A model generated the notes under the pieces. That model ran no database searches, was not told the origin of the DNA, and saw only the letters and a program-made list of their open reading frames with translations. A program made the position numbers and the translations under genes. From Opitutaceae bacterium (lineage in GTDB: Bacteria > Verrucomicrobiota > Verrucomicrobiia > Opitutales > Opitutaceae), in contig JAIXWF010000013.1 of the NCBI GenBank assembly GCA_027482185.1, forward strand, positions 744,001 to 808,000: DNA of 64,000 bases, given 5' to 3'. Position 1 is the first letter of the stretch, and each line of letters begins with the position of its first letter. Positions 13,795-32,230 of the stretch are shown in pieces.

Positions 13795-15216
13795 ATGATC
13801 TCAACCCGGGCGCGCGGACTGGCTAACCTCCATGCGGGGGCGACCACGCTGGGCGTCGGGATCGTGTTCTGGGTCTACGCGGAATTCATCATGCGGTACG
13901 TGCCGGTGGTGCGGCTGAGCCGGGAAGTGAATCTGATCCCGTACTTTCTCTGCATGGTCGGGGGCATGGCCTTGGCGGCGCGCGAAGTGGTGCGGCTTGG
14001 ATCCCGCTCGCATGTGTTGGAATTCGGGGAGGCGGCGCGCTTGGCGGCACGGCAGGTCGGCCTGATGGCGCTGCTGACCTTCACCATGATGTTCGCGACG
14101 CAGGACCGCAGCATCAGCCGTCTCTTCCTCGGCACGTTTTTGGCCGGTTCGTGGTTGGGTTTGCTGTTTGCCAACCTCCAGCTGCCGCGGTGGCTGGCGA
14201 AACTGATGTTTTCGCGCGGGCATCGGCTGCCGACGGTGTTTGTCGGCCGGACCTCGGCGCTCGTGCGGTTGCAGGATTGGATCGCGAACAAGGAGAGCCT
14301 CGGCGTCGAGCCGATCGGGGTGCTGAGCACGGAGGAGCCGGCGATCGGGGCTCCGCCGCCCGTCGTGCCGCGGCTGGGGCGGCCGGAAGAACTGGCGCGC
14401 GTCCTCGCGGAGCGCGAAGTGGCGCAGGTCATCTTGCTGGCGCTGCCGGCGTCGGACGAGGAGGCGCGCGCGGTGATCGAATTGTGCCAGGAGCACGGTT
14501 GCCGCTTGCTGATCCACAACAACCTCGCCGAACGCTACACGCATCCGCTCGTGCCGGCGGTGGAAGACGGGCGCCATTTCTACACGCTGCAGGAAGAGCC
14601 GCTCGAGGATCCGCTGCACCGGCTGGTGAAGCGCGGGTTCGACGTGGCGGTGGCGTTGCCGGTCGTGCTGTTGGTGCTGCCGCCGCTGTGCGCGTGGGTG
14701 GCGCTCATGCAGCGGAGCCAGGCGCCGGGGCCGCTGTTCCACGCGCGCGAGCGCCGCGGGCAGAGCGGGCGCACGTTCCGCATGCTGAAATTCCGGTCGA
14801 TGCGCGTGGCGCCGGAGGACGCGGTGGCGGAATCGAAACAGGCGCAGGCGGAGGACGAACGCATTTTCCCCTTCGGCCGGTTCCTGCGCCGCCGGAGTCT
14901 CGACGAGTTTCCCCAGTTCTGGAACGTGCTGGTGGGCGAGATGAGTGTGGTCGGACCGCGGCCCTACATGCCGCTGCTCGACGAGGAATTCCGCCGCCAG
15001 GCGCGCGGCTACCGGACGCGGCACCTCGTGAAGCCGGGCATCACGGGTCTCGCGCAGAGCCTCGGCTACCGGGGCGAGATTCTGGAAACGGAGATGCTCA
15101 ACCGGCGCGTGTATTGGGATGTCTACTACATCACCCACTGGTCCGTCTGGCTCGACCTGCAGATCACGGTGCGGACGCTGCTGCAGGTATTCCGGCCGCC
15201 GCAGACGGCGTATTAG
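13795..15216 (+). CDS. Polyisoprenyl-phosphate hexose-1-phosphate transferase (initiating sugar transferase)
   Basis: The 473-residue membrane enzyme has four N-terminal helices (about 10-125), a cytoplasmic Rossmann-like CoA-binding-type segment (about 140-270), a fifth helix (VALPVVLLVLPPLCAWVAL, about 283-302) and a bacterial sugar-transferase core. Core motifs are PGPLFHARERRG, FRMLKFRSMR, SLDEFPQFWNVLVGEMSVVG, GPRPYMP and HLVKPGITGLAQ. This WbaP/WcaJ-type family transfers a sugar 1-phosphate from a UDP-sugar to undecaprenyl phosphate and starts an exopolysaccharide repeat. It is oddly isolated inside the sulfatase island, more than 30 kb from the export genes later in the window, and convergent with the following sulfatase. 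Confidence 0.92.
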   Translation: MISTRARGLANLHAGATTLGVGIVFWVYAEFIMRYVPVVRLSREVNLIPYFLCMVGGMALAAREVVRLGSRSHVLEFGEAARLAARQVGLMALLTFTMMFATQDRSISRLFLGTFLAGSWLGLLFANLQLPRWLAKLMFSRGHRLPTVFVGRTSALVRLQDWIANKESLGVEPIGVLSTEEPAIGAPPPVVPRLGRPEELARVLAEREVAQVILLALPASDEEARAVIELCQEHGCRLLIHNNLAERYTHPLVPAVEDGRHFYTLQEEPLEDPLHRLVKRGFDVAVALPVVLLVLPPLCAWVALMQRSQAPGPLFHARERRGQSGRTFRMLKFRSMRVAPEDAVAESKQAQAEDERIFPFGRFLRRRSLDEFPQFWNVLVGEMSVVGPRPYMPLLDEEFRRQARGYRTRHLVKPGITGLAQSLGYRGEILETEMLNRRVYWDVYYITHWSVWLDLQITVRTLLQVFRPPQTAY

Positions 15217-15239
15217 CCGGCCGCGCGGGGCGGCCGGCG

Positions 15240-15383
15240 GTTGAAAGTTGAAAGCTCGAGGTTGAAAGAAAGGAAAGTGCGGAGGCCCGGGCGGTGAACC
15301 ACTGATGTTCACTCATGGGCACTGATGGCTCGGGCGCGGGGTTCGGCCCGGGATCGTTCTCTCAACTCTCAGCTTTCAACTGT
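15240..15383. repeat. Inverted word repeats flanking an ACCACTGATG element
   Basis: The spacer carries GTTGAAAGTTGAAAGCTCG near 15240-15258 and, inverted, CTCAGCTTTCAACTGTC at 15367-15383. Between them, at 15297-15328, is AACCACTGATG then TTCACTCATGGGCACTGATG. It separates convergent genes and could form a long imperfect hairpin, which might serve as a bidirectional transcription end. Confidence 0.55.
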
Positions 15384-15392
15384 CCCGGCCGT

Positions 15393-16819
<1,427 letters not shown>

Positions 16820-16820
<1 letters not shown>

Positions 16821-18337
16821 CAGGGTTGGGCGGGGAGGGCGGCTTTCCAACCGGCGCGGAGCTGGGCGGTGAATTTCGCGACGAGCTCGGCGTGGGCGGG
16901 TTGGTTGGCGAGGTTCACGTTTTCCTGCGGGTCGGTGCGGTGGTCGTAGAGTTCGAGGGCGGCGACCTTGCTGTGGTCGTTGCGGTGGAGCCAGGCGGTG
17001 AAGCGGTGGTGCTCGGTGCGGAGCGAGTAACCCATGAGTTGCTGGCCGCCGGTGGCGGAATTGCCGGGGCGCGGGTATTGGCTGAAGGCGGCCTGCTTCC
17101 AGGCGCGGTCGGGATTTTCGAGCAGGCCCTTGAAGCTGGCGCCTTCGAGGTGGGCGGGCAGCGGGAGGCCGGCGAGGTCGGCGAGCGTCGGATAAACGTC
17201 GACGAACTCGACGATACCGTTGGTGCGTTTGCCGGCGTGCTTCATGCCCGGGACGGAAAGGAGAAGGGCGCCGTTGGTGTCGTTCTCGGTGTTGCTGTGT
17301 TTGCACCAGGCATCGTGCTCGCCGAGTTTCCAACCGTGGTCGCCCCAGAGGACGACGATGGTTTTTTCGCGGAGGCCCAAGCGGTCGAGTTCGTCGAGGA
17401 CCTTGCCGAGCTGGGCGTCCATGTAGCTGATCGCGGCATAGTAGCCGTGTTTCAATTGGCGGGCGAGGTCGTCCGGGATCGAGCCTTCGGGAATGCCGTG
17501 GTAGTTGCGCAATTCGCCGCCGGGCAGAACGGCGTACTCGGGCGCGTCCTTCGGGCGGAATTTGTTCGGCGCGAGTTGGATTTTCGCGGGATCGTAGAGG
17601 TCCCAGTATTTCTTCGGCGCGACGAAGGGCAGGTGCGGCTTGGAGAAACCGACCGCGAGGAAGAACGGTTCTTTCTTTTTGCTCAGGTCGCGGAGCGTGG
17701 CGACGGCGAGGTCGGCGGTTTTGCCGTCAGTGAACGTGTTGTCCGGAACGTCGGCGCCTTCGAAGGCGGGGCCGCGGGAATTGCGGGGTGTGGCGCCTTT
17801 TTTCTTCTTCGCGCCTTTTTCCTGCTTCGGGGCGCCGTCGATGTCGTTGGGCTGGGGGACGCGTTGGTGGAGGGCGAGATTTTCCGGCAGGCCGTAGGCT
17901 TGGGCGCGGGGCGTCTGCCACGGCACGGTCCAAGTCGGGGCGTCGTCGAAGCCGCCGTGGTAGATCTTGCCCATGCCCTGGACGAAGTAGCCGTTGTTCT
18001 TGAAGTGTTGGCCGACGGTGACGACGTCGGGCAGGGCGGTGCGGAAATGGGTTTCGAGGTCCCAGACCTTGGTGGTGTCGGGCCGCGTGCCGGTCATCAG
18101 GCTGGAGCGCGTCGGGGAGCAGACGGCCTGCTGGACGTAGGCGCGGTTGAACGTGATGCCGGCCTTGGCGAGGCGGTCGAGGTTGGGGCTCTTGATGTAG
18201 GAGGCCCCGTAGGCGCCGAACTCGGGGCGGAGATCGTCGACGGCGACGAAGAGAATATTGGGCCGGTCGGCGGCCGAAGCGGCGGCGGCGAGCAGCGAGG
18301 AAACAAAGACCGCGAGGAGGCGGGCGGGGGATTTCAT
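16820..18337 (-). CDS. Secreted sulfatase, iduronate-2-sulfatase-like
   Basis: The protein has 505 residues from the ATG at 18337, which begins a signal peptide (MKSPARLLAVFVSSLLAAAA). Core motifs are NILFVAVDDLRPEFGAYG, formylglycine site Cys73 in CSPTRSSLMTGTRP, GMGKIYHG, FFLAVGFSKPHLPF and LWGDHGWKLGEHD. A lysine-rich insert (KQEKGAKKKKGA, about residues 185-200) sits in a variable loop and is unusual for this otherwise arginine- and alanine-rich set. The stop overlaps the next sulfatase start by one base. Part of its coding sequence around VVTVGQHFK is duplicated as a relic at 19517-19551. Confidence 0.92.
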
Positions 18338-18464
18338 GGGGCGAAGAAGCTCAAGACGATCGTAGGTTCCGGGGGCGGCGGTGGCCAGTGACGCAACCAT
18401 TGCCTCCGGTGGGGCGATGGTAGGTGAGGTGAAATGCGGAAAGGGAGAGCCGGCAGGAGTGGCC

Positions 18465-19436
18465 CTACTTTTTTCCCTTCGTCTTCTGGTTTGGGGCCGG
18501 CGGAGCAGGGAGGGCGAAGGTGATCGCGCGGGCGATCGAAGCCAGAGAGACGGTGTTGTGGCTTTCGTCCGGGATCAGCGCATAGCGGACCATGATTTTT
18601 TCGGGATTCAGCTTGCCGAGGCGGTCGGCGAGATTGCGCGCGTTGCCGATCATGCCGTCGGCCTCTTCTGCGGCGAGCAGGGTGGGATCCGATCCCATGT
18701 ATCCCTCGCCGCCAGCCGATGTGATCAGGATCCGAAGCTTGAGCGCGCCTTCACGGGCCTTGGCCGAAAACGTCGGCTCGTCGGCGAGCACGGCCTTGTC
18801 GCCCTGCCAAAGCGCAGGACTGATGATAAGGTACGTGGAGTAGTGCTCAGGGTTGCGCAGCAGCGCACGCGCGACGGCGAGTCCGCCAAGGGATTTGCCG
18901 TAGAGCATATAGCGGGCGGGATCGACGGCGTACTGCGAGGCCACGAAAGGTTTGATCTCCTCTTCGATGATGCGGAGGAACGTATCGCAGCCGCCGGAGC
19001 CATTGGGGAAGCGCGCCGGTTGTTCCTTTACGGTCATGTCGATGGCGCGCCTGCGGCTGACGTCGGAGTTTTCCTCGGTCTGGTAGCAAATGCCTACGAC
19101 GATGGCAGGCTCGAACCTGCCACTGCCCCAGGTGACAGTGTCGGAGGCGGCGCGGAAGTACCAGTTGCCGTCTAGGACGAAGAGAACCGGATAGCGTTTG
19201 CCCGGCTCCGCCTTGGGGGCGGAGATCATCAGGCGGTAGGGATGGCCGTTGATTGAAGACGTGAAGTCGAACTGGCGTTCACGCGAAACGGCGACCTGGC
19301 CTTGGCTGGTGACCGCGATTTTTGCGGCGGGACTTCCGTCGGCCGCGGCGCCAAGAACCGGCAGAAGCAACGCAGCAACTACCGGCATGGCGGCACGCAG
19401 GAGAGAATGCTGATTGGTCCGGGTGGGGTTGGGCAT
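18465..19436 (-). CDS. Secreted putative esterase (Esterase_D/Fes-type alpha/beta-hydrolase)
   Basis: The protein has 323 residues from ATG 19436; an internal ATG at 19388 would also give a signal peptide (MPVVAALLLPVLGAAADG), so the start is uncertain. The fold motifs are YPVLFVLDGNWYF, VVGICYQTEE, nucleophile Ser in YGKSLGGLAVARALL, and a C-terminal DESHNTVSLASIARAI with the likely catalytic His. This matches the putative-esterase family that includes enterochelin and feruloyl esterases. A Gly- and Lys-containing tail (NQKTKGKK) ends the protein. By eye it has somewhat lower GC and less biased codons than its neighbours. It sits between an intact sulfatase and a sulfatase remnant, which suggests later insertion. 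Confidence 0.85.
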   Translation of the reverse strand: MPNPTRTNQHSLLRAAMPVVAALLLPVLGAAADGSPAAKIAVTSQGQVAVSRERQFDFTSSINGHPYRLMISAPKAEPGKRYPVLFVLDGNWYFRAASDTVTWGSGRFEPAIVVGICYQTEENSDVSRRRAIDMTVKEQPARFPNGSGGCDTFLRIIEEEIKPFVASQYAVDPARYMLYGKSLGGLAVARALLRNPEHYSTYLIISPALWQGDKAVLADEPTFSAKAREGALKLRILITSAGGEGYMGSDPTLLAAEEADGMIGNARNLADRLGKLNPEKIMVRYALIPDESHNTVSLASIARAITFALPAPPAPNQKTKGKK

Positions 19437-19516
19437 CGGATGGTGGAATCGAAATTGGAGGAGACGGGCTTCTAGTCGCAACAACGGGGTGAGACTACGC
19501 CTCAGAGTAGCGATGA

Positions 19517-19551
19517 TCCTTGAAGGGTTGGCCGACGGTGACGACGTCGGG
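19517..19551 (-). pseudogene. Remnant of a sulfatase gene
   Basis: About 32 bases match the intact sulfatase gene at 18000-18031 with one mismatch; a 25-base stretch is identical. On the minus strand it reads VPDVVTVGQPFKD, against LPDVVTVGQHFKN in the intact protein. A stop follows within about 20 bases, and no sulfatase motif lies on either side. It is too short to be functional and looks like what is left after deletion or replacement of a second copy. Confidence 0.6.
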
Positions 19552-19618
19552 AACATCGAGCAGCGAAGCGCCGAGTGGGAAGAGGGAATTCATGAAACGG
19601 CGGAACGGAGCGGGCGGA

Positions 19619-20947
19619 TCACTTCTTGTTCTTTTTCTGTTCGCGGGCTTCGGCGTTTTTGGCGTGGCGGCCGGATTCGGGACCGCGGTCGGGCACGCCG
19701 CCGGCGGGATTGAGTTTGGCGAGGACGGCGGAGAGGCGCGAGCGGGCGGCGACGGCGGCGGCGTCGGTCGAACCGGCGGGCACGGCCTTCTCCGAGAATG
19801 GCGCGTCGGACATGTCGAAGAGTTCGCCGGCGTGATTGAGTTTCCAGTTCGCTTCGCGAACCCACCACTGGCGGGCGAGTTGGTTGAAGGCCCAGCCGCG
19901 GCTGGCGTTCTTGCCGCCGCGGAGGGCGGGAAGCAGGTTCTCGCCGTCGATGACGGTGCCTTGGGGCAAAGGGGCGCCGGCGAGGGCGGCGAAGGTGGGG
20001 AAGAAGGAACTGGAGTCGACGGGGTCCGCGTTGACCGTGCCGGCGGGAACGAGGCCGGGGAAATTGACGATCATGGGGACGAGGGCGCCGCCCTCGAGCA
20101 TGTCGCCCTTGGAGCCGGCGAGGGTGCGGCCGCCGATGGTGGCGCGTTCGTAGCGGCCGGAGGCGGTGCCGTTGTCGCCGAGGAAGACGATCATGGTGCG
20201 GTCGCGCAGCTGCAGTTTTTCCAACTCGGCGACGAGCTTGCCGACGAGTTTGTCCATGTAGCGGACATTGTCGGTGTAGAGATCCTTGCTGTCGGGCGCG
20301 CTGTCGGGCGTCGGCAGAATCTCGGAATGCACGTGCGACATCGAGTAGTAGAGGAAGAACGGCCGCTCGCGGTTTTTGGCGACCCAGGCGGCGATGTGGT
20401 CGTGCATCACGTCGGGGAGATATTCGCGGTCGCGGAGATCGCGTTTCTCGCCGTTGACGAGGTAGGTGCGGCCCTTGGACTGCGTGTTCCAGTAGGTGCC
20501 GCTGCCGGTGAACTTGAGGTAGTCGTCGAAGCCGAATTCGGCGGGCCCGAGGGGAAGCTGGCCCCATTTGCCGACGGCGGAGGTGACGTAGCCGGCGGGC
20601 TTGAGCAGCGCGGGGACCATCTTCTCGGCGGTCGTGAATTCGCCGGTGGCGTCCTGGTTGGTGGCGCCGTTGCGGAAACCGTAGCGGCCGGTGAGGATCT
20701 GGGCGCGGGAGGGACCGCAGAGCGGGACGGTGTACGCGCGGGTGAAACGCATGCCGCCGGCGGCGAGGGCGTCGATATTCGGCGTCCTGTAGTTGTCGGC
20801 GCCGTAGCTGCTCACCTCGCCGGTGCCGTAGTCGTCGGCGAGGATGAAGATGATGTTGGGCTTGGCGGCGGCGGCGGGCGCGGCGAACGCGGAAGCGGCG
20901 AGGAGGGCGGCGGCGAGGCCGGCGAGGAGGGGGCGGAGCGTGGACAT
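19619..20947 (-). CDS. Secreted sulfatase in the sigma-receptor operon
   Basis: The protein has 442 residues with a signal peptide (MSTLRPLLAGLAAALLAASAFA). Motifs are NIIFILADDYGTGEVSSYG, formylglycine site Cys77 in CGPSRAQILTGRYG, VGKWGQL, FFLYYSMSHVHSE and IVFLGDNGTASG. It has a charged, low-complexity C-terminus (HAKNAEAREQKKNKK). It begins 11 bases after the TonB-receptor stop and is the last gene of the operon sigma factor, anti-sigma-like protein, receptor, sulfatase. It is therefore the sulfatase most likely induced by the ligand the receptor imports. The spacing of YGTGEVSSYG differs from the usual GWGD pattern, pointing to a distinct subfamily. Confidence 0.92.
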   Translation of the reverse strand: MSTLRPLLAGLAAALLAASAFAAPAAAAKPNIIFILADDYGTGEVSSYGADNYRTPNIDALAAGGMRFTRAYTVPLCGPSRAQILTGRYGFRNGATNQDATGEFTTAEKMVPALLKPAGYVTSAVGKWGQLPLGPAEFGFDDYLKFTGSGTYWNTQSKGRTYLVNGEKRDLRDREYLPDVMHDHIAAWVAKNRERPFFLYYSMSHVHSEILPTPDSAPDSKDLYTDNVRYMDKLVGKLVAELEKLQLRDRTMIVFLGDNGTASGRYERATIGGRTLAGSKGDMLEGGALVPMIVNFPGLVPAGTVNADPVDSSSFFPTFAALAGAPLPQGTVIDGENLLPALRGGKNASRGWAFNQLARQWWVREANWKLNHAGELFDMSDAPFSEKAVPAGSTDAAAVAARSRLSAVLAKLNPAGGVPDRGPESGRHAKNAEAREQKKNKK

Positions 20948-20958
20948 GGAGGCAGGGG

Positions 20959-23757
20959 TCAGAACCGGACCGTGACGGTCAGGTCATACTGGGGCGGCAT
21001 GACGTACGAGAAGGTGTAGACGTTGGCGCCGTTGGCGAGCGTGGTGAATCCGGTTTTGCGCAGGGCGCCGTTCTCGAGATCGGAGAGGTATTTGACGCCG
21101 GCGCGGACGCGGACCTGGCGGCCCCACAGTTTCTGGTCGCGCATGACGTAGGCGTTGGTCAGGTGGCTGCTGCCGCCGACCATGCTTTGGCCGGAGGGGA
21201 CGCCGAAGAGGTAGTCGTCGCGCCAGCTGCCGTTGACACCGACGCGCACGCCGCGGAGCGGGGTCCAGACGGCGCGGTCGAAGGCGTAATCGACGATCCA
21301 AGAGGCGGACCACGGTGAGGCGCGGGCGCCGGCGGGGCGGGTGGAGATGTCGAGGGAATCGAGCAGAAGCTTGGCGGTGGCGAGGACGGCGGGGGCTTCG
21401 TTGCCGCGGGCGACAGCGGCGTTGTAGTAGCCGCGGAAGGACGCGAGGTCGGGTTCGCCCAGCACGCGGGTACGCGCGAGGGTGAAGCGGAGCTGCAGGT
21501 TCTTGGAGGGACGGAGGAGGAGGGTCAGATCGGCGCCGGTGGAGTTTTCCGTGGAGCGGTAGTTGCGGGCGGCGCTGGCGGTGCCGGGGGCGCTGAACCG
21601 GTAGCGCGGATCGCCGGGGAGGACGTCGTTGGGATTCATCAGATCCTCCAGCTGGACGGCGCTGAGGCCGATGACGTTGTTGTAGGAGAGAACGACGTTC
21701 TTCCGGTCGATGTCGAAAACGCCGAGCGTGAAGCCGGCGCGGCCGTCAAAGAAGGAACCCTTCAGACCGATTTCCTTCGTCGTGCCCTCGATGGGACCGA
21801 AGCGGACGTTGTCGAAGGTGACGGCGTCCTGAAAACGGAAGGACTCGGAGTAAACGCCGTAGACATTGACGTCTTTGTTCAGCGCGAAGGTCAGACCGGC
21901 GGTGGCCGTGGTGGCGGAGAGGCGCAGGGCAAGATTTTCGCGGTAGTCGCCGGGCAGAGCGTCCTGGCGTTTGGGCGGCTGGATGGCTTCGCGGAACTGC
22001 CCGAAATAGCGCGAGGTGGTGTATTCGTAGAGCCGATTCCGGTCGTGGCGCAGGCCGACGAGGGATTGGAGCCGGCCGCCGAAGTAGCGGCCGCTGGCGG
22101 ACACGGAGGCGGCGGCGCTGCGGCTCCAGCTGGTGCCGCTGGCGGCGTCGGTGCCGGAGGCGAAGAAGCCGAGCATGCGCATGTCGACTTGGTCGGTGAC
22201 GGGCGGATTGCTGAACTGCACGCGGTCGTAGAGGGCGCGGGAGTAGAACGCGGGATCGTCGAGGTAGACGCGGAGGCGGCCGCGGTCGTTGGCGATGTCG
22301 ATCGTGGAGGCGGCGCCGCTCAGGACACGTTTCACGTTGTAGCCCTGGAGGCGGTAGTTGTCGACGGCGTGCTCGCGGTACTCGGCGCTGGCGACGAGCA
22401 ACTGCGTCATGCCTTTGAAGGGAGTCCACGGGTAGACGACGGAACCGCGGAAGGCGTCGGTCTCGGTGCCGAAGCGTTTGCGGTCGGAGGCGGCGTCGGT
22501 GAACGGCCGGCCGGCGGCGTCGAAACCGATCGTGGTGTCGAAGGCGTTGTCGTTGCGGTCGGACTGCTGGTTCTGGTGGTTGTAGGCGAGCTCGACGGAG
22601 ACGGGGCCGAGGCCCTGTTCGACGGTGAGGGAGTAGGTGTTGAAGGGGCGGGCCTGTTGGTCGAAGGAACCGCGGAGGTTGTAGTGTTTGGGCAGGCCGG
22701 CGTAGCGGCGGGTGCCGACGACGGCGCCGGCGGCGTTGCGCAGGGCGATGTCGTAGAAGCCGCCTTCGACGAGCGACGGCGTGCCGCCGGCGACGCCGTT
22801 GGCCGCGCCGCGGTCGATCGCGGGCAGGGCGGATTGGACGATCCACTGGCCGTCCGAGGTGTAGTAGGTGCCGGCGGCGGAGAAACCGCGGCCGCGCGCG
22901 GATTGTTCGTAAACGGAGATGCCCGCGAAGCCGCGGCGGTTGTCGTACTTGCCCTGTTCGCCCTCGACGCGGATCGAGGTGTGGCGGAACGGCTGCCAGA
23001 CGACGGCGAGCGTCTCGCCTTCGAATTTGTAGGCGGAGGCGTCCTGGAACGTTTTCTCCTGGCGGCGCACGGCGTTGAAGCGGGCGGCGAGGTTGCTCCG
23101 CAGCTTGCGGTTGACGTCGAGCTGGTAGCGGTAGGCGCCCTCGCTGTTGTAGAAGGCGGTCGCGGTGCCGAAATTCCGCAGCAGGGGGCGCTTGGTGAAG
23201 ACGGCGCCCTGGCCGCCGGGCTCGACCTCGCCGAAGATGAGCGAGTTGGAGCCCTTGCCGAAGTCGATGCGCTCGACGTTGTAGGTGTCGGACGGGATGA
23301 ACCACCGGAAATAATTCCGGCTGACGTTGTTCGTCTGGCTGAGGCCGCGGAACGAGAAATTGCCGCCTTGGTTGTCGTTTTCCATCACCGGGGCGGCGAA
23401 GACATTGGCGACAAATTGGGCGGTTTCGTCGGCGGTGAAGAGGCCGAGGTCCTCCATGAAATCGGAGGTGATCGCGTCGATGTTTACCGGCACGTCTTTG
23501 AGGGCCTGCTTGGTGCGCGTGGCAGTGAGGGTGTCGTTGGCGGACCAACCCGTTTCGCGTTCGGTCGCGATGATGAACGGCGAAAGTTCGACGACCGCCT
23601 CGGGGGCGGCCGGGCGCGGGGCGGGGGCGGTTTGGGCGGGGAGCAGCGCGGTCGCGGCAAGGGCGACGCACACGGCCAGCGGGAGTTGGGCGAACGCGGG
23701 CGGGAAGCAGGCGCGACGGGCAGCAGACAGACGACGGCGGAGGGCAGGGGTATCCAT
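20959..23757 (-). CDS. TonB-dependent outer-membrane receptor
   Basis: The protein has 932 residues from the ATG at 23757, with a long signal region ending near LLPAQTAPA (about residue 44). A TonB-box-like segment VVELSPFIIATERE leads into a plug domain (about 70-190: TATRTKQALKDVPVNIDAIT, FSFRGLSQTNNVSRNYFRW and NVERIDFGKGSNSLIFGEVE). A barrel of about 22 strands follows and ends in the terminal aromatic signature DLTVTVRF. It is paralogous to the receptor at 26210-28975. Such receptors import oligosaccharides, siderophores or cobalamin. The downstream sulfatase and upstream sigma/anti-sigma pair favour a sulfated glycan. The gap to the anti-sigma gene is only 23 bases. Confidence 0.93.
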   Translation of the reverse strand: MDTPALRRRLSAARRACFPPAFAQLPLAVCVALAATALLPAQTAPAPRPAAPEAVVELSPFIIATERETGWSANDTLTATRTKQALKDVPVNIDAITSDFMEDLGLFTADETAQFVANVFAAPVMENDNQGGNFSFRGLSQTNNVSRNYFRWFIPSDTYNVERIDFGKGSNSLIFGEVEPGGQGAVFTKRPLLRNFGTATAFYNSEGAYRYQLDVNRKLRSNLAARFNAVRRQEKTFQDASAYKFEGETLAVVWQPFRHTSIRVEGEQGKYDNRRGFAGISVYEQSARGRGFSAAGTYYTSDGQWIVQSALPAIDRGAANGVAGGTPSLVEGGFYDIALRNAAGAVVGTRRYAGLPKHYNLRGSFDQQARPFNTYSLTVEQGLGPVSVELAYNHQNQQSDRNDNAFDTTIGFDAAGRPFTDAASDRKRFGTETDAFRGSVVYPWTPFKGMTQLLVASAEYREHAVDNYRLQGYNVKRVLSGAASTIDIANDRGRLRVYLDDPAFYSRALYDRVQFSNPPVTDQVDMRMLGFFASGTDAASGTSWSRSAAASVSASGRYFGGRLQSLVGLRHDRNRLYEYTTSRYFGQFREAIQPPKRQDALPGDYRENLALRLSATTATAGLTFALNKDVNVYGVYSESFRFQDAVTFDNVRFGPIEGTTKEIGLKGSFFDGRAGFTLGVFDIDRKNVVLSYNNVIGLSAVQLEDLMNPNDVLPGDPRYRFSAPGTASAARNYRSTENSTGADLTLLLRPSKNLQLRFTLARTRVLGEPDLASFRGYYNAAVARGNEAPAVLATAKLLLDSLDISTRPAGARASPWSASWIVDYAFDRAVWTPLRGVRVGVNGSWRDDYLFGVPSGQSMVGGSSHLTNAYVMRDQKLWGRQVRVRAGVKYLSDLENGALRKTGFTTLANGANVYTFSYVMPPQYDLTVTVRF

Positions 23758-23780
23758 CGGGGGCGGGGGCTGGGGTTGAC

Positions 23781-24737
23781 TCAGGGAAGGGGGGCGCGGC
23801 GGGAGAGCGAAACGCGGAGGTCGTCGGCGTAGCTGCCCTTGAAGACGGGGTTGTCGCCGGATTCGAACGACTGGTTGATGTGCAGGCGCACGGCGACGAA
23901 CTCGGCCTGGGGCGGCAGACGCAGCTCGGTCGTCAGGCGCTGCCACGAGGCGGGATCGCGGTCGAGTTTGGTGCGGCTGCTGCGCGCCATGGCGAGGGCT
24001 TCGTCGGCCAGCGCGCTGCCGAGGCGGCCGACGCGTTCGGGGACGGATTCGGCTTCGAGGGCGTAGAGGGAAATGGCGCAGCCGTAGCTTTCCGCGTCGG
24101 GAAACTCGAGGGCGTTGAAACTGGCGGAGACTTCGAGCACGCCCTCGCCGTCGGCGAAGTCGGCGCGGTACGGCCGGAGATCGATGAGGCGGTAGACGAC
24201 GGCGATGTGGCCGCCGGCGGGCTTGGCCGCGACCTCGGCGTCGGCGCGCAGGAAGCGCAGCATCTTCGCGCCGCGGGCGGGGGCGAGGCCGTGCTGCGCG
24301 CCCACGACCTCGGCGGCGTCGCCGCGCCACAGGCCCGGTCCGAGGGGCACGCGGGAAGCGGGAACGGCGGCGGGCGATTCGAAATCCTCCGCGAGCACCG
24401 TGCGCGGCACGGGCGCGACGGGAGACACGACGGCCCAGACCATTGTCGCGGTGAGCAGGCCGAGGCAAAGACCGGCGGCGGCCTGCGGCGCCCATTGCCG
24501 CCACGTGGACGCGGGGCGGGGGGCGGCGGGCGGCGGCAGTGCGAGGCGTTCACCCGGGGCGCGCGCGGCGCCGAGCGCCGGGCCGGCGGCCAACTCCGCG
24601 TGCAGGTCGGCGTAGCGCACCCACGCGTCCAAGGCGGCGGCATCGGTCCGCAGGCGCCGGTGGAAGTCCGCGAGCTCCGCCGCGGTCGCGCGGCCGTCGC
24701 ACACGCGGGCGAAGAGATCTTCGTCGTCGTCGGTCAT
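23781..24737 (-). CDS. Membrane anti-sigma-like protein with periplasmic jelly-roll-like domain
   Basis: The 318-residue protein shares a 4-base overlap (ATGA) with the upstream sigma gene. Residues 1-75 (MTDDDEDLFARVCDGRATAAELADFHRRL, conserved as a helical cytoplasmic segment) look like a sigma-binding anti-sigma head without a clear zinc-finger HxxxCxxC. One membrane helix lies near residues 92-112 (LCLGLLTATMVWAVV). Residues about 125-318 are predicted beta-rich (GVLEVSASFNALEF, RLTTELRLPPQAEFVAVRLHIN and YADDLRVSLSR), resembling a carbohydrate-binding or LamG-like jelly roll. The position between sigma factor and receptor suggests a sensor that releases the sigma factor on ligand binding. 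No FecR domain is recognisable, and the function is inference. Confidence 0.75.
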   Translation of the reverse strand: MTDDDEDLFARVCDGRATAAELADFHRRLRTDAAALDAWVRYADLHAELAAGPALGAARAPGERLALPPPAAPRPASTWRQWAPQAAAGLCLGLLTATMVWAVVSPVAPVPRTVLAEDFESPAAVPASRVPLGPGLWRGDAAEVVGAQHGLAPARGAKMLRFLRADAEVAAKPAGGHIAVVYRLIDLRPYRADFADGEGVLEVSASFNALEFPDAESYGCAISLYALEAESVPERVGRLGSALADEALAMARSSRTKLDRDPASWQRLTTELRLPPQAEFVAVRLHINQSFESGDNPVFKGSYADDLRVSLSRRAPLP

Positions 24738-25282
24738 GGTTGCGGCAGGACGCCCTCGGTCCGCAGGCTGCGTTCGATGCAGTCCAAGAGAGAGCGGCGG
24801 ATGCGTTGGAGGGATTTGTAGACGGCGTCCGGGCTGCGGCCCTCGCGCAGGGCGAGGGATTCGACCGTTTCGTCGTCGCGGTAGTAGCCGTCGAGCGTCG
24901 CGCGCTGCGCGGGCGGGAGTTTGGCGAGGCAGTCGCGCAGTTTCTCGCCGCGGAGCGAAAGTTCGTCGGCCTGCTCGTGCGCGCGCCGGTCGATGAGATC
25001 CATGAGATCGTCGCGGGCGAAGGCCTCCCAGCGCGGCTGCCGGCGCCAGAATTCGCGCACCTTGAACCGGGCGATGCCGCAGGCCCAGGGGAGGAACTCG
25101 CGCGTGGCGTCGAACTCCGCGCGTTTGGCCCAGAGCGTGACGAGCGTTTCCTGCAGCACGTCGCGGGCGTCGGCCGCGGCGGGGACGTAGCGCAGGATGA
25201 ACCGGAGCAGGGCGCGTTCGCCGAGCATGAATTGCCGGAGAAAGGCTTCGTCGTCGGCCTGCGGACTGGGGGCGGCGTCCAT
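24734..25282 (-). CDS. ECF sigma factor (planctomycete/verrucomicrobial type)
   Basis: The protein has 182 residues. Region 2 is seen in AFLRQFMLGERALLRFILRY and DARDVLQETLVTLWAKRAEF, followed by FLPWACGIARFKVREFWRR. Region 4 is seen in LPPAQRATLDGYYRDDETVE and the helix-turn-helix REGRSPDAVYKSLQRIRRSLLDCI. The length and the sequence FLPWACGIARFKV are typical of the Rhodopirellula/Verrucomicrobium sigma-70 family. It is the first gene of a four-gene operon with an anti-sigma-like protein, a TonB receptor and a sulfatase. Autoregulation from a promoter in the 83-base spacer upstream is likely but not visible. Confidence 0.92.
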   Translation of the reverse strand: MDAAPSPQADDEAFLRQFMLGERALLRFILRYVPAAADARDVLQETLVTLWAKRAEFDATREFLPWACGIARFKVREFWRRQPRWEAFARDDLMDLIDRRAHEQADELSLRGEKLRDCLAKLPPAQRATLDGYYRDDETVESLALREGRSPDAVYKSLQRIRRSLLDCIERSLRTEGVLPQP

Positions 25283-25365
25283 GGGGGTTCACACCATATT
25301 GGCGGAAGCGGGCCGGATTTGGACAACGATCCGGCGGGAATCGCGCGCCCGGCGGCGCGGCCGGT

Positions 25366-26052
25366 TCAGAAACCGTGGCGGAGGCGTTCCTTTTCGTCGG
25401 CGAGGACGTCGTCGAGGGCCATCGCGTAGATGCGCGAGAACGTGGCGAAGCCGCAGAGGGCGTTGAGATTCGAGTCGCGTTCGGAGGCGCGGCGCAGGCG
25501 CTGCATGAGGGCGGAGTTCACGTCGTCGAGTTTCCGATACAGCTCGACGAGGCCGGCCATTTCCCAATCGGGCGTGCCGCCGTCGCGCAGGGCGAAGTAT
25601 TGCTTGAGCAGGTAGTGGCCGGCGACGCGGGTGAGCGTTTCGTCGAGGGAAGAGAACGGCACGTGCTGCAGGGCGAGCGGGCGTAGGCGGCGGGTGACGG
25701 GGCAGCCGCCGAGGGCGAGGTAGAGGCCGAACAGCGAGCGGAGCCCCGTGTTCATGTCGACGTGCGAGGAATAGGTGCGGGTGCCGACGGTGACGACGAC
25801 CTGGGCTTTGCGGAACGACGCGATGGCGCTGAAACGCGCGGCGGCGCCGTGCAGATCGACGGCGGCGGGGCAGTAGCGGTGGACGGCGGCGTCGAGCGGG
25901 CAACCGGGGCAGCGGTCGACGGCGAGGAGAGTCCACTCGGGACGGGGCTCGTCGCGGTTGGCGTCCGTCTCGACCCAGCCCTGGGCCGGCACGGAGAAGT
26001 GGAACGTCTGGCCGTCTTCGAACGTGAAGTCGTAGGTGATGGGCGAGTCCAT
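25366..26052 (-). CDS. Conserved cysteine-containing protein (DUF6901-like)
   Basis: The 228-residue soluble protein has no signal peptide. The N-terminal part is beta-rich (ITYDFTFEDGQTFHFSV). Three clustered cysteines, C48-x2-C51-x9-C61, lie in RCPGCPLDAAVHRYCP, and a further GGCP follows near residue 117. The second half is helical (VAGHYLLKQYFALRDGGTPDW and ALMQRLRRASERDSNLNALC). It resembles, from memory, a bacterial family of unknown function called DUF6901. The cysteine set could bind a metal. It lies between the sigma operon and the second receptor's terminator, with no clear operon partner. Confidence 0.75.
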   Translation of the reverse strand: MDSPITYDFTFEDGQTFHFSVPAQGWVETDANRDEPRPEWTLLAVDRCPGCPLDAAVHRYCPAAVDLHGAAARFSAIASFRKAQVVVTVGTRTYSSHVDMNTGLRSLFGLYLALGGCPVTRRLRPLALQHVPFSSLDETLTRVAGHYLLKQYFALRDGGTPDWEMAGLVELYRKLDDVNSALMQRLRRASERDSNLNALCGFATFSRIYAMALDDVLADEKERLRHGF

Positions 26053-26151
26053 GGGAGGAAGGCGGCGGCCGGGGCGGGTCGGTGCTCAGGAAGGCGAAGT
26101 GCGGCAGGGAAACGAGACCGAAGTGCGGTGGGGGCGGCCGACGCCGGACGC

Positions 26152-26183
26152 AAAAAAGCCCGCGCCCCAGGCAGGGCGCGGGC
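26152..26183 (-). terminator. Intrinsic terminator of the second TonB receptor gene
   Basis: A perfect 10-base-pair stem GCCCGCGCCC (26158-26167) / GGGCGCGGGC (26174-26183) with a 6-base loop is followed, on the minus strand, by six T (A run at 26152-26157). It lies 27 bases past the stop codon of the receptor gene. Confidence 0.88.
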
Positions 26184-26209
26184 GAGGTACGGTCCGCCGT
26201 TCGCAGCGA

Positions 26210-28975
26210 TCAGAAGCGGACCGTAAGGCTGAGGTCGACCTGGAGCGGGACGACGTAGCTGTAGCGGTAGACGTTGGTGCCGTTGGCGAGGGTCGTGAAA
26301 CTCGTCTTGCGGAGGGAACCGTTCTCGAGGTCCGCGATGTTGCGGAAACCGAGGCGGGCGCGGACCTGCTGGTTCCAGATCTTCTGGTCGCGCATGACGT
26401 AGCCGTGGACGAGGTGGGTGGCGCCGCCGGCGAGGGATTGGCCGTTGGCAATGCCGAAGAGGTAGTCGTCGCGCCAGCTGCCGTTGAGGCCGACGCGGAC
26501 GCCGCGGAGCGGCTGCCAGACATCGCGGGCGAAGGCGTAATCGACGACCCAGCTGGCGGACCACGGCGAGGCGCGGGCTCCCGTGGGCTTCTGGTCGATG
26601 TCGAGGGAATCGAGCAGCGTCTTGGCCTCGTTGAGGAGGGCCGGGGACTCGTTGCCGCGGGCGACGGCGGCCTCGTAATAGCCGCGGAAGGAATCGAGGT
26701 TGGGGAGGCCGGTGACCTTGGTGCGCGCGAGCGTGAAGCGGAGCTGCAGGCCCTTCAGCGGGCGGATGTTCAAGGTGACGTCGGCGCCGCGGGAATTTTC
26801 CGTGGAGCTGTAGTAGCGGGCGGCGGAGGCGGTGCCTTCCTCGCCGTACTTGTAGCGCGGATCGCCCGGGAGGACGTCGTTGGGATTCATCAGGTCCTCG
26901 ATTTCGGCGGTGTTGAAATCGATGACGCCGTTCCAACTCAGGGCGACGTTCTGGCGGTCGATGTCGAAGACGCCGAGGTTCACGCTGGCGCGGTCGCCCC
27001 AGAAGCTGCCCTTGAGGCCGACTTCCTTGGTCACGCCGGTGATCGGCGGGAAGCGCTCGCGGTCGAAGGTGCGGAGACCCTGGAAGCGGAACGACTCGGA
27101 ATAGACGCCGTAGAAGTTGAGGTCCTTCGTGAGAACGACGGTGACGCCGCCCGTCATGCTCGTGTTCTCGAGGCGCAATTGCTTGTTTTCAACGTACTCG
27201 CCGGGGAGGGCGTCGCCGCGCTTCGGCGGCGGGACTTCCTCTTTGTAGGGCCCGAACGTGCGCGTGCCTTCGTATTCGTAATTCCGATTCCAGTCGTGGC
27301 GGGCGCCGATGAGCGTCTGGATGCGGCCGCCGAAGTAACGGCCGCTCGTCGAGAGCGCGACGGCCGAGGACTGGCGCCATTGGGTGCCGTCGGTCGAACT
27401 CGTGCCGGACGGGAACGAGGCGAGGGACTTCGGCGTGACGGTGGGCGTGGTCGGCAGGTTGGCCGGCTTCATCGCGTCGAAGAGGGCGCGGGAATAGAAG
27501 CGCGGGTCGTCGAGGAAGAGGCGGAGGCGAATGCGGTCGGAGTTGGTGTTGAGGGTGCCGCCGCGGTCGACGTTGTAGGTGTTGTAGGTGTTGAAACGGT
27601 AGTTGGTGACCTGGTCCTCGCGGTACTCGGCGCTGCCGACGATCAGCTGCTGCATCCACTTCCACTTGTCGAATTTGTAGACGGCGGTGCCGCGGAACGA
27701 ATCGACGGTGTTGCCGAAGCGTTTCTCATCGAGCTCGGTCTCGATGTAGGGGCGGCCGTTCACGTCGACGCTGATCGTGCTGGAGAAGAAGTTGTCGTTG
27801 CGGATGGCGGTCTGGCGCTGGTGGTTGTAGGCGACCTCGACGCCGACCGGGCCGACGCGCTGCTCGACGGTGACGGACGTGGTGTCGAAGGGGCGGTTCT
27901 GGCGGTCGAAGGAGCCGCGCAGGTTGTAGTGCTTCGGGTAGCCGTTGAAACGCTTGGTGCCGACGACGGCGCCGGCGGCGTTGCGCATGGTGACGTCGAA
28001 GAAACCGCCCTCGACGAGCGAGGGGGAGCCGCCGGCGGGGCCGTTGGCGCGGTCGGCCGCGGGAAGGGAATTGCGCACGATCCATTCGCCGTCGGAGGTG
28101 TAATGGAGACGATCGCTGGTGTAGGCGCGGGAGCGGGCGGATTGTTCGCGGATGGTGACGCCGCCGAAGCCGCGGACGTTCTCGAAATCGCCCTGCTCGT
28201 ACTCGACGCGGATCATCGTTTCCTTGAACGGCTGCCACGTCGTGGTGAGCGTTTCGCCGGCGAGCTGGAACGTGGAGGCGTCCTGGAACGTGCGTTCCTG
28301 GCGGCGCACGGCGTTGAAGCGAACGGCGAGGTTGTTCCGGAGCTTGCGGTTGAGATCGATCTGGAAGCGGTAGGCGCCGTCGCTGTTGTACTGGGAAAGG
28401 AAGATGCCGAAATTCCGCATCTGCGCGCGCTTCGTGAAGACGGAGGCCTGGCCGCCCGGATCGACGTCGCCGAAGATGAGGGAGTTGGAGCCCTTGCCGA
28501 AATCGATGCGCTCGACGTTGTAGGTGTCGGACGGGATGTACCAGCGGAAGTAGTTGCGCGCGGCGGTGGAGCCGCTGAGGCCGCGGAAAGAGACGGCGCC
28601 GCTCTGGTTGTCGTTCTCGAGCGTGGGCGGGGCGAAGGCGTTGGCGACGTAGTTGGCGACTTCGTCGGCGGTGAAGAGGCCGAGGTCCTCCATGAAATCG
28701 GCGGTGATGGCGTCGATGTTCACCGGCACATCCTTGAGCGCCTGCTTGGTGCGCGTGGCGGAGAGCGTGTCGTTGGCGGACCAGCCGGCTTCGGTTTCCG
28801 TCATGACGATGAACGGCGACAGCGTCACGGTCTCGTCCTTGGCGGCGACGGCGGCGGTGGCGGATGCGGCGGCGGGCGCGGTCTGCGCGGGCAGCTGCGG
28901 CAGGGTCAGGAGGCACAGCGCGGCCGGCAGGAGCCGGGCTGCGCCGCGGAGCGGGGCCGGGGTGGGGGTAGTCAT
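26210..28975 (-). CDS. TonB-dependent outer-membrane receptor (paralogue)
   Basis: The protein has 921 residues from the ATG at 28975, with a signal peptide (PLRGAARLLPAALCLLTLPQ). It has the same plan as the receptor at 20959-23757: TLSPFIVMTETEAGWSANDT, SATRTKQALKDVPVNIDAIT, DFMEDLGLFTADE, RNYFRWYIPSDTYNVERIDF and the final VDLSLTVRF. The plug is close to the paralogue, while many barrel loops differ, so the two probably import different but related ligands. It is a single-gene transcript with a strong terminator. A TTCCAC-AA-GTGGAA palindrome lies about 60 bases upstream. Upstream on the other strand are the TldD genes. Confidence 0.93.
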   Translation of the reverse strand: MTTPTPAPLRGAARLLPAALCLLTLPQLPAQTAPAAASATAAVAAKDETVTLSPFIVMTETEAGWSANDTLSATRTKQALKDVPVNIDAITADFMEDLGLFTADEVANYVANAFAPPTLENDNQSGAVSFRGLSGSTAARNYFRWYIPSDTYNVERIDFGKGSNSLIFGDVDPGGQASVFTKRAQMRNFGIFLSQYNSDGAYRFQIDLNRKLRNNLAVRFNAVRRQERTFQDASTFQLAGETLTTTWQPFKETMIRVEYEQGDFENVRGFGGVTIREQSARSRAYTSDRLHYTSDGEWIVRNSLPAADRANGPAGGSPSLVEGGFFDVTMRNAAGAVVGTKRFNGYPKHYNLRGSFDRQNRPFDTTSVTVEQRVGPVGVEVAYNHQRQTAIRNDNFFSSTISVDVNGRPYIETELDEKRFGNTVDSFRGTAVYKFDKWKWMQQLIVGSAEYREDQVTNYRFNTYNTYNVDRGGTLNTNSDRIRLRLFLDDPRFYSRALFDAMKPANLPTTPTVTPKSLASFPSGTSSTDGTQWRQSSAVALSTSGRYFGGRIQTLIGARHDWNRNYEYEGTRTFGPYKEEVPPPKRGDALPGEYVENKQLRLENTSMTGGVTVVLTKDLNFYGVYSESFRFQGLRTFDRERFPPITGVTKEVGLKGSFWGDRASVNLGVFDIDRQNVALSWNGVIDFNTAEIEDLMNPNDVLPGDPRYKYGEEGTASAARYYSSTENSRGADVTLNIRPLKGLQLRFTLARTKVTGLPNLDSFRGYYEAAVARGNESPALLNEAKTLLDSLDIDQKPTGARASPWSASWVVDYAFARDVWQPLRGVRVGLNGSWRDDYLFGIANGQSLAGGATHLVHGYVMRDQKIWNQQVRARLGFRNIADLENGSLRKTSFTTLANGTNVYRYSYVVPLQVDLSLTVRF

Positions 28976-29033
28976 AGGTTTCCGGACCGTCGAGAAACGG
29001 CACGGACGTCCGAAAGGTTGTCCGGTTGGGCGA

Positions 29034-29047
29034 TTCCACAAGTGGAA
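29034..29047. promoter_or_regulatory. Perfect palindrome TTCCAC-AA-GTGGAA
   Basis: The arms TTCCAC (29034-29039) and GTGGAA (29042-29047) pair perfectly around AA. The site lies in the 233-base spacer between the divergent TonB-receptor and TldD genes, 59 bases before the receptor start, so it could be an operator for the receptor. No regulator for it is identified. Confidence 0.4.
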
Positions 29048-29208
29048 CCTTGCTGATATCGTTGATCGGGATGACGGACCGGTGTCAGGGCGGGCGCGAA
29101 ACGCGGGTTGACGCGCCGGCGGCGCTTATGACACAGCGTGGCGATGCCGGTTGCCGTTCAGGAAGAATGCCGCACGGTGCGCAGCGGGGGCTGGGCCCGA
29201 ACATACCT

Positions 29209-30834
29209 ATGAACCGTCGCTTCTTCATCCGCCGGGCCGGCGCCGCCGGCAGTCTGCTGCTTTTGCCGGCGTGGACGGCGGCCGCGGAGCGGCTGGCCGC
29301 CGGCGAACCGATCGCACTCGCCCGCAAGAAACGCCTGGCCGACGCCGCGCTGAACGCCGCGGTCAAGCGCGGGGCGACCTACGCCGACGTGCGCATCGGG
29401 CGCTACCTCAGCCAGTCGATCTCGACGCGCGAGACGAAGGTCGACGGCGTTACGAACGACGAAAGCCGCGGCGCCGGCGTGCGGGTGATCGCGGACGGCG
29501 CGTGGGGCTTCATGGCGACCGACCGGCTCACGGAAGATTCCATCGCGCGGGCCGCGGCGGAGGCCGTGGCGATCGCGAAGGCGAACGCGCGCCTGCAGGA
29601 CGAACCCGTCGTGCTGGCCCCCCAGGCCGGCGTCGGCGAGACGGCGTGGTGCACGCCGATCCGGATCAACCCGTTTGCCGTGCCGTTGCAGGAAAAGGTC
29701 GAGCATCTGCTCGCCGCCAACCGGGCCGCGCTCGGCGCGGGCGCGAGTTTCATCAACACGCAGCTCTACCAGATCAACGAGCAGAAGTATTTCGCGAGCA
29801 CGGACGGATCCTACATCGACCAGGACATCCACCGGCTCTGGCCGACGTTCACCGTCACGGCCACGGACCCGAAGACCGGTCGCTTCGACACCCGCAACGC
29901 CCTGAGTTCCCCGATGGGCCGCGGCTACGAATACCTCGGGGCCGATCCCGCGGGGAAACGGCCCGGCGTGACGGTGCGCTATTTCGAATCCTACGATCTG
30001 GCGGAGGACGCCGTCCTCGCCGCGCAGCAGGCGCGGGAAAAACTCGCCGCCAAGCGCGTCGTCGCGGGGCAATACGACCTCGTGCTCGACCCGACGCACC
30101 TCGGGCTTACGATCCACGAATCGGTCGGCCACGCGACCGAGCTCGACCGCGTGCTCGGCTACGAGGCCAACTACGCCGGCACGTCGTTCGCGACTCTGGA
30201 CAAATGGAAGTCCAAGGAATTCAGATACGGCAGCCCGATCGTGAACTTCTTCGCCGACCGCACCGAGGCCGGCACGCTCGGCGCGGTGGGCTACGACGAC
30301 GAGGGCGTGCCCGCCAAGCGCTGGCCGCTGGTCAAAAACGGCATTCTGGTCGACTACCAGAAGACGCGCGACCAGGCCCACATCGTCGGGCAGCGCGCCG
30401 GCGACGGCTGCTCGTTCGCGCAGTCGTGGAATGCGGTGCAGTTCCAGCGCATGCCCAACGTCTCGCTCCAGCCCGGCGCGGAGCCGCTGACCCCGGCGGA
30501 CATGATCAAGGGCGTGGAGCGCGGCATCTACATCGTCGGCCGCGGCTCCTACTCGATCGACCAGCAGCGCTACAACTTCCAGTTCGGCGGCCAGCTCTTC
30601 TACGAGATCAAGAACGGCGAGATCGTCGGCATGCTCCGCGACGTCGCCTACCAGTCGAACACCCAGGAGTTCTGGAATTCGTGCGCCGCGATCTGCGACC
30701 GCCGCGACTACATGCATTTCGGCAGTTTCTTCGACGGCAAGGGCCAGCCCTCGCAGGTCAGCGCCGTTTCCCACGGCAGCGCCACCGCCCGTTTCAACAA
30801 GGTCAACGTCCTCAACACCGGCCGGAAAATCTGA
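29209..30834 (+). CDS. TldD-family metalloprotease with Tat-like signal
   Basis: The protein has 541 residues. The N-terminus NRRFFIRRAGAAGSLLLLPA resembles a twin-arginine signal. The mature part is a TldD/PmbA-family protein: YADVRIGRYLSQSI, VDGVTNDESRGAGVRVI, and the zinc site H303-E304-x3-H308 in TIHESVGHATELDRVLGYE. A C-terminal region ends with NGEIVGMLRDVAYQSNTQEF and the conserved NSCAAICDRRDY. In E. coli TldD and TldE form a heterodimeric protease cleaving modified peptides, with zinc in TldD only. A Tat-exported TldD is atypical of that cytoplasmic model. The gene is followed 56 bases later by a TldE-like gene. Confidence 0.92.
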   Translation: MNRRFFIRRAGAAGSLLLLPAWTAAAERLAAGEPIALARKKRLADAALNAAVKRGATYADVRIGRYLSQSISTRETKVDGVTNDESRGAGVRVIADGAWGFMATDRLTEDSIARAAAEAVAIAKANARLQDEPVVLAPQAGVGETAWCTPIRINPFAVPLQEKVEHLLAANRAALGAGASFINTQLYQINEQKYFASTDGSYIDQDIHRLWPTFTVTATDPKTGRFDTRNALSSPMGRGYEYLGADPAGKRPGVTVRYFESYDLAEDAVLAAQQAREKLAAKRVVAGQYDLVLDPTHLGLTIHESVGHATELDRVLGYEANYAGTSFATLDKWKSKEFRYGSPIVNFFADRTEAGTLGAVGYDDEGVPAKRWPLVKNGILVDYQKTRDQAHIVGQRAGDGCSFAQSWNAVQFQRMPNVSLQPGAEPLTPADMIKGVERGIYIVGRGSYSIDQQRYNFQFGGQLFYEIKNGEIVGMLRDVAYQSNTQEFWNSCAAICDRRDYMHFGSFFDGKGQPSQVSAVSHGSATARFNKVNVLNTGRKI

Positions 30835-30852
30835 AGACCGCCGGTGCCGAAA

Positions 30853-30890
30853 AATCCGCCCTCCGCAATCCGCCTTCCGCAATTTTCCCC
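30853..30890. repeat. Inverted GCGGATTGCGGA-type intergenic words
   Basis: The 56-base spacer holds CCGCCCTCCGCAATCCGCC and TTCCGCAATTTTCCCC. Read on the minus strand these match the AATTGCGGATCGCGGATTTT words at 8645-8664. It abuts the TldE-like start codon. Confidence 0.45.
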
Positions 30891-32219: not shown

Positions 32220-32230
32220 ACCCCGCGCCC

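Follow-up and report, generated by a model that had tools for sequence, protein, structure and literature searches.

The DNA analyzed here is a window of 64,000 nucleotides from an Opitutaceae bacterium. Between positions 19619 and 25282, its minus strand carries four genes in close succession. The first encodes an ECF sigma factor of the Sig-70_gvs1 subfamily (24734–25282, 182 residues; PF04542, 3.3e-12; PF08281, 8e-7; TIGR02989). The second codes for a one-helix anti-sigma factor of 318 residues (23781–24737), assigned by an AlphaFold2 model, fold matches, and homology of its N-terminal head. Next come a TonB-dependent receptor (TBDR) of 932 residues with a plug domain (20959–23757; PF07715, 3.3e-8, residues 86–182) and a sulfatase of 442 residues, SULF_A (19619–20947; PF00884, 4.4e-51). 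SULF_A contains the sequence CGPSR, which fits the formylglycine-type motif C-X-P-S-R. The compact arrangement proposed by an earlier sequence-only reading was reproduced in full: the sigma and anti-sigma genes share the four bases ATGA, and gaps of 23 and 11 bases separate the anti-sigma gene from the TBDR gene and the TBDR gene from SULF_A.

Judged by spacing, the operon may extend beyond position 19619 into three more minus-strand genes. These are an esterase-family gene (called at 18465–19436; PF00756, 1.1e-17 over 18465–19556, with an ATG at 19556, upstream of the called start, that fits too), a second sulfatase, SULF_B (16820–18337; PF00884, 6.9e-40 over 16820–18400), and a third one, SULF_C (15393–16820; PF00884, 4.7e-47), which overlaps SULF_B by one base. 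Scans of 14500–29200 for sigma-70 promoters (0 found, 0.8 expected) and for terminators (13 found, 12.2 expected) were uninformative. On the other side of the sigma gene lies a second TBDR gene (26210–28975, minus strand; PF07715, 1.1e-5), a paralogue of the receptor in the operon. A second TBDR is also found upstream of the sigma gene in the loci L227 and L234, and it possibly serves the same substrate cluster as the operon.

Several other genes of the window deserve mention. A DUF6901 gene (25366–26052, minus strand; 6.5e-57) separates the sigma gene from the second TBDR. The minus-strand gene at 4763–7018 encodes a single protein in which an esterase (BD-FAE) at the N-terminus is combined with a sulfatase domain at the C-terminus. 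Three consecutive TldD/PmbA-type genes occupy 29209–33865 on the plus strand (two were checked against Pfam), and by eye the outer two resemble close paralogues. A large protein without a Pfam match begins at 62019 on the plus strand and continues beyond the window end (62019–63998). A relative of this protein (1221 bits) is encoded directly after the sigma/anti-sigma pair of the locus L058, and L244 and L245 encode further relatives some 3.6 kb downstream.

The AlphaFold2 model of the anti-sigma protein (mean pLDDT 80.5, pTM 0.62) contains three helices within residues 3–57, a single membrane helix at 83–104, and beta strands from 112 to 313. This model agrees with the small head, single membrane helix, and beta-rich outer domain read from the sequence, and the limits predicted there are close. 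The outer part (approximately residues 107–318) starts right behind the membrane helix and is predicted to be a CBM22-like beta-sandwich. A structure search with the model returned CBM22-type folds and Fbs1 as the closest matches, and the predicted domain shows the beta-sandwich fold of CBM22/CBM4/CBM61-type carbohydrate-binding modules. Sequence comparison was less informative. A Pfam and NCBIfam scan at E up to 1 gave no match, hence none to FecR (PF04773). The N-terminal domain of RsgI, a Pfam family, likewise gave no match at this threshold. No CBM family is among the 13 families listed for 34 relatives. A profile search of the PDB matched Xyn10C (4xun) weakly at E 0.59, and a PDB search with the single sequence produced one meaningless match (E 0.78). 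Of the CBM and LamG folds suggested for comparison, the model supports a predicted CBM22-type beta-sandwich; LamG found no support, with no profile match and only legume lectins low in the Foldseek results (E 2.2e-3 and worse). A hidden FecR domain was also rejected, because the FecR profile match is absent and a CBM-type beta-sandwich is predicted in its place. This is the replacement of FecR that had been proposed from the sequence.

The sigma factor matches TIGR02989 over the entire profile (positions 1–158 of 158) with 144.4 bits, compared to a curated cut-off of 124.55. The system of the window is not an isolated one. A survey of 150 genomes from its taxonomic family at E up to 1e-30 placed gvs1 sigma factors in 36 of them with at least 97 matches, which is a lower bound as at most 23 candidates were scored per genome. 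From these and related searches we sampled 27 regions through protein matches, 80 through sigma matches, one other gvs1 locus of the same genome, and the window itself. One locus (L214) was probably misread and was excluded from later steps. A partner frame is present at 106 of 108 sigma loci, and the remaining two lie at contig ends. The four-base sigma/partner overlap recurs in 83 of these 106, a count from a script that gave preference to overlapping starts and to frames containing a hydrophobic stretch. A search that started instead from the anti-sigma protein covered 387 genomes of the phylum, scoring five candidates in each, and turned up relatives in at least 17 of them. At 12 such loci a sigma-like frame lies directly upstream in 11 cases, three of them by weak similarity (31–37 bits), and the twelfth is at a contig edge. 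By these sequence relationships, the system of the window forms a single branch within a large family of paired sigma and anti-sigma factors.

Most long partners in this family look different from the anti-sigma protein of the window. Among 67 of them (E up to 0.01), 62 contain FecR, 41 Laminin_G_3, five CBM96, one F5/8, and four PSCyt1/PSCyt2/PSD1. FecR matches were found in three of 34 short partners, a set that includes the protein of the window. A simple FecR motif count (59 of 104) disagreed with these Pfam numbers and was dropped. Two of the sampled proteins, L206:4028–7561 (minus strand, 1178 residues) and L210:4567–7521 (minus strand, 985 residues), consist of a head and membrane helix fused to PSCyt1, PSCyt2 (DUF1549), and PSD1 (DUF1553), so that here the sigma regulator itself is a planctomycete-type cytochrome protein.

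The heads of both classes are related. An alignment of 20 no-FecR heads with 36 long-partner heads, leaving out two further short heads of A6, gave an hhalign E of 5.2e-18, and 20 column shuffles gave 0.057–0.76. Because the heads are homologous, the anti-sigma protein of the window is a FecR-free member of the gvs1 partner family; it also has one membrane helix and is encoded by a gene adjoining that of the sigma factor. We discarded the idea that the no-FecR form is a single clade: parsimony on a sigma tree requires eight label changes, at least three of them forced by well-supported branches. The tree was a quick one of 104 rows with weak deep branches, and its labels came from protein length and our own lists. 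Since the no-FecR label changes at least eight times on this tree, the swap between FecR and no-FecR forms has probably occurred several times.

The 6.4 Mb host genome illustrates this diversity. It has 45 Sigma70_r2, 18 FecR, and 17 STN matches, and three sigma genes above the gvs1 cut-off: that of the window, L072 with a no-FecR partner, and L105, the partner of which has FecR but no LamG match. No STN match lies beside any of the three. L072 (G000 C3:1448000–1467000) is the second no-FecR pair of this genome. Behind it come genes for a DUF1552 protein and a DUF1592-type cytochrome protein, then two that resemble sulfatase genes, and one for a TBDR.

The sequence-only reading had staked its proposal on finding the same gene order elsewhere, and this order is indeed kept. 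Nine orthologous loci were compared: the window, L055, L056, L057, L208 (judged by length and motif, the same contig as L227), L193 (by the same criteria, that of L229), L231, L233, and L234. Eight loci of relatives in a named collection belong to metagenome-assembled Opitutaceae, Opitutae, and Verrucomicrobia. A TBDR follows the anti-sigma gene in all nine orthologous loci, with the qualifications that it is a 217-residue piece in L234, a frame split in two in L208/L227, and a different TBDR in L233. SULF_A is present in five of the six loci with sufficient downstream sequence (window, L055, L057, L208, L233) and is absent from L234; L056, L193, and L231 end shortly after the TBDR. SULF_B stands right behind SULF_A in L055 and L057. 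Similar genes follow SULF_A in L233 and L227, and that of L233 is a Chondroitinas_B gene (PF14592, 1.2e-46). A UxuA gene lies upstream in L229. In L234:7451–9631, the sigma and anti-sigma genes are split over several frames, a fragmentation that may reflect decay or metagenome assembly errors. Because sigma factor, anti-sigma factor, and TBDR recur together in further Opitutae genomes, the four-gene arrangement is not a matter of chance. The system is real; it is conserved and has clear bounds.

Upstream of the sigma gene, the putative promoter TGTCCAA-N15-GCCAATA (25297–25325, minus strand) ends 14–15 bases before the ATG. This element is conserved exactly in six of seven orthologous loci with readable upstream DNA, and in the seventh (L234) it occupies the corresponding position with a single mismatch; L231 and L233 begin within the anti-sigma gene. 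No other common upstream block was found in the six best orthologues. Shuffled upstream regions, which keep only single-base content, shared 5-mer pairs among at most three of six. With spacers of 14–16 bases, the element has one copy per genome in six of seven genomes, always at this site, and a reversed control none. The seventh genome (G020) holds no exact copy, and its homologous locus L058 retains TGTCCAA only. Allowing one mismatch adds one site in the host genome and four in G201, where the reversed control has one. The extra site of the host genome falls inside a frame on the opposite strand that by eye resembles a tRNA synthetase gene. We took it as a chance occurrence and rejected a wider regulon.

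ECF promoters have this 7-N15-7 spacing, and we infer that the element is recognized by the sigma factor of the operon itself. As a private promoter-like element, it would imply self-activation, in keeping with the earlier proposal that the receptor/sulfatase operon switches itself on. Alternatively, the bipartite element could be the operator of another regulator, with the sigma pair controlling genes elsewhere. In favor of this alternative, its distance of 14–15 bases from the ATG would make for a very short leader. Yet the ECF-type spacing, the different pairs at the same place in two other no-FecR sigma clades, and the single exact copy in each of six genomes make this explanation very unlikely. 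In the L059 and L138 clades, five of five members share their element, which is weaker than apparent given their close kinship. In the L063 clade, two of three do so, no better than shuffles. Long-partner clades share elements in four of 11, three of six, three of seven, two of four, and three of four members, counts that equal the shuffle maximum of two to three or exceed it by one; in the clade with L105, three of six have a similar first half. Distinct elements per sigma clade suggest that the ligand of each sensor could be tied to one locus.

What does the sensor read? One possibility is that the TBDR relays the signal, its plug or short N-terminus touching the CBM-like domain, which would then recognize protein instead of sugar. 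TBDR genes are indeed enriched near no-FecR partners. When loci with 700 or more bases of downstream DNA are counted, the start of a TBDR falls no more than 300 bases from the anti-sigma gene in 11 of 24 no-FecR loci, two of 63 long-partner loci, and none of 10 others (no-FecR versus long: Fisher p 4.9e-6, a test that ignores kinship, with nine of the 11 coming from two clades). Against such a relay, no STN domain was found on the operon TBDR (profile, E up to 1), and none of the 17 STN matches of the genome is at this locus, whereas 15 of them adjoin 15 FecR matches that each adjoin a sigma gene. By coordinates these are putative FecIRA-type sets (nine of the 15 STN matches above and six below the Pfam cut-off). 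In addition, no TBDR was found near several no-FecR loci, among them L058, L138, L067, L073, and L180. We therefore regard receptor-relayed signaling as unlikely.

Our preferred reading is that the operon forms a self-activating glycan switch, a conclusion we hold to be probable with some reserve. Without ligand, the three-helix head would tether the sigma factor to the inner membrane, as suggested by head homology and gene pairing. Class I anti-sigma domains, which contact sigma through helices 1 and 4, offer a precedent (PMC7406223). A sulfated, perhaps uronate-rich oligosaccharide would reach the periplasm through basal TBDR and bind to the CBM22-like outer domain. Binding would end the grip of the head, and the likeliest route is regulated intramembrane proteolysis of the kind known for RsgI and FecR; RseP and ClpXP are described for the RsgI precedent (PMC12203970), and cleavage by RseP for FecR (PMC8144685). 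The freed sigma factor would then read the element ahead of its own gene, raising sigma, anti-sigma, receptor, and sulfatase together as one transcript. Because the receptor lacks an STN domain, it would serve as cargo rather than as sensor.

A switch of this architecture could also sense the envelope (peptidoglycan, lipopolysaccharide, or a damaged or sulfated product), which would make the operon a stress or remodeling response. The common fold does not reveal the ligand, and in the RsiV–lysozyme case (PMC5014341) an anti-sigma factor binds a protein directly. However, the window encodes at least seven Pfam sulfatases (4763–7018 and those at 8707, 10641, 12485, 15393, 16820, and 19619, with part of the genes scanned), an esterase, and receptors, and L233 adds Chondroitinas_B. 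The surroundings thus resemble a nutrient locus, and envelope sensing appears improbable.

Returning to the glycan switch, its parts are known in kind and their combination appears to be new among the literature found. No earlier account of a sigma/anti-sigma/TBDR/sulfatase set was among the matches listed. PMC10434189, which mentions FecR, LamG, and sigma factor, does so for separate Bacteroides genes only. PMC8857213 presents Verrucomicrobiota as specialists for sulfated glycans, and among the matches listed the choice between their many sulfatases is little studied. The locus supplies a testable sensor (residues 107–318) and a sigma–promoter pair with a genome-unique element, a possible orthogonal switch. 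More tentatively, and with somewhat more doubt than belief, we consider that one-helix glycan receptors of Verrucomicrobiota may generally take the place of SusD, hybrid two-component systems, and FecA-type regulation. A common head would carry an exchangeable outer domain (CBM22-like, FecR plus LamG, CBM96, F5/8, or an entire planctomycete-type cytochrome c/DUF1549/DUF1553 protein), each with a private sigma factor and a private promoter for one sulfated-glycan locus. The window would represent the STN-less, FecR-less form, with the receptor out of sensing.

Comparison with known systems places this operon among several relatives. Like FecI-FecR-FecA, it groups an ECF sigma factor, a membrane anti-sigma factor, and a TBDR. 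In contrast to that system, and as had been claimed, the anti-sigma factor lacks FecR and the receptor lacks STN, while by coordinates 15 sets of the FecIRA type exist elsewhere in the genome. Bacteroidota SusC/D loci also couple ECF sigma/anti-sigma pairs to glycan-linked TBDR control (PMC10766802). The distinction from SusCD was borne out by the absence of SusD_RagB (PF07980, the one SusD family searched) from the whole genome, with a positive Bacteroides control. ECF52 and ECF53 likewise connect sigma control to predicted carbohydrate-binding or glycosyl-hydrolase domains, but there sigma and anti-sigma are fused in one protein (PMC10766802), whereas the window has two genes. RsgI/sigma-I of Clostridium thermocellum (PMC12203970, PMC10766802) resembles our system in that a membrane anti-sigma factor with an extracytoplasmic substrate sensor controls polysaccharide-degradation genes via its own sigma factor. 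By these sources, RsgI differs in its Gram-positive host and autocleaving periplasmic domain; the anti-sigma factor of the window is without a Pfam match (E up to 1), and its neighbors are an outer-membrane receptor and sulfatases. The long FecR/LamG partners of the same taxonomic family share the sigma subfamily, the homologous head, one membrane helix, and outer lectin-type domains. Most of these carry FecR, whereas the anti-sigma factor of the window places its predicted CBM22-like domain directly after the helix.
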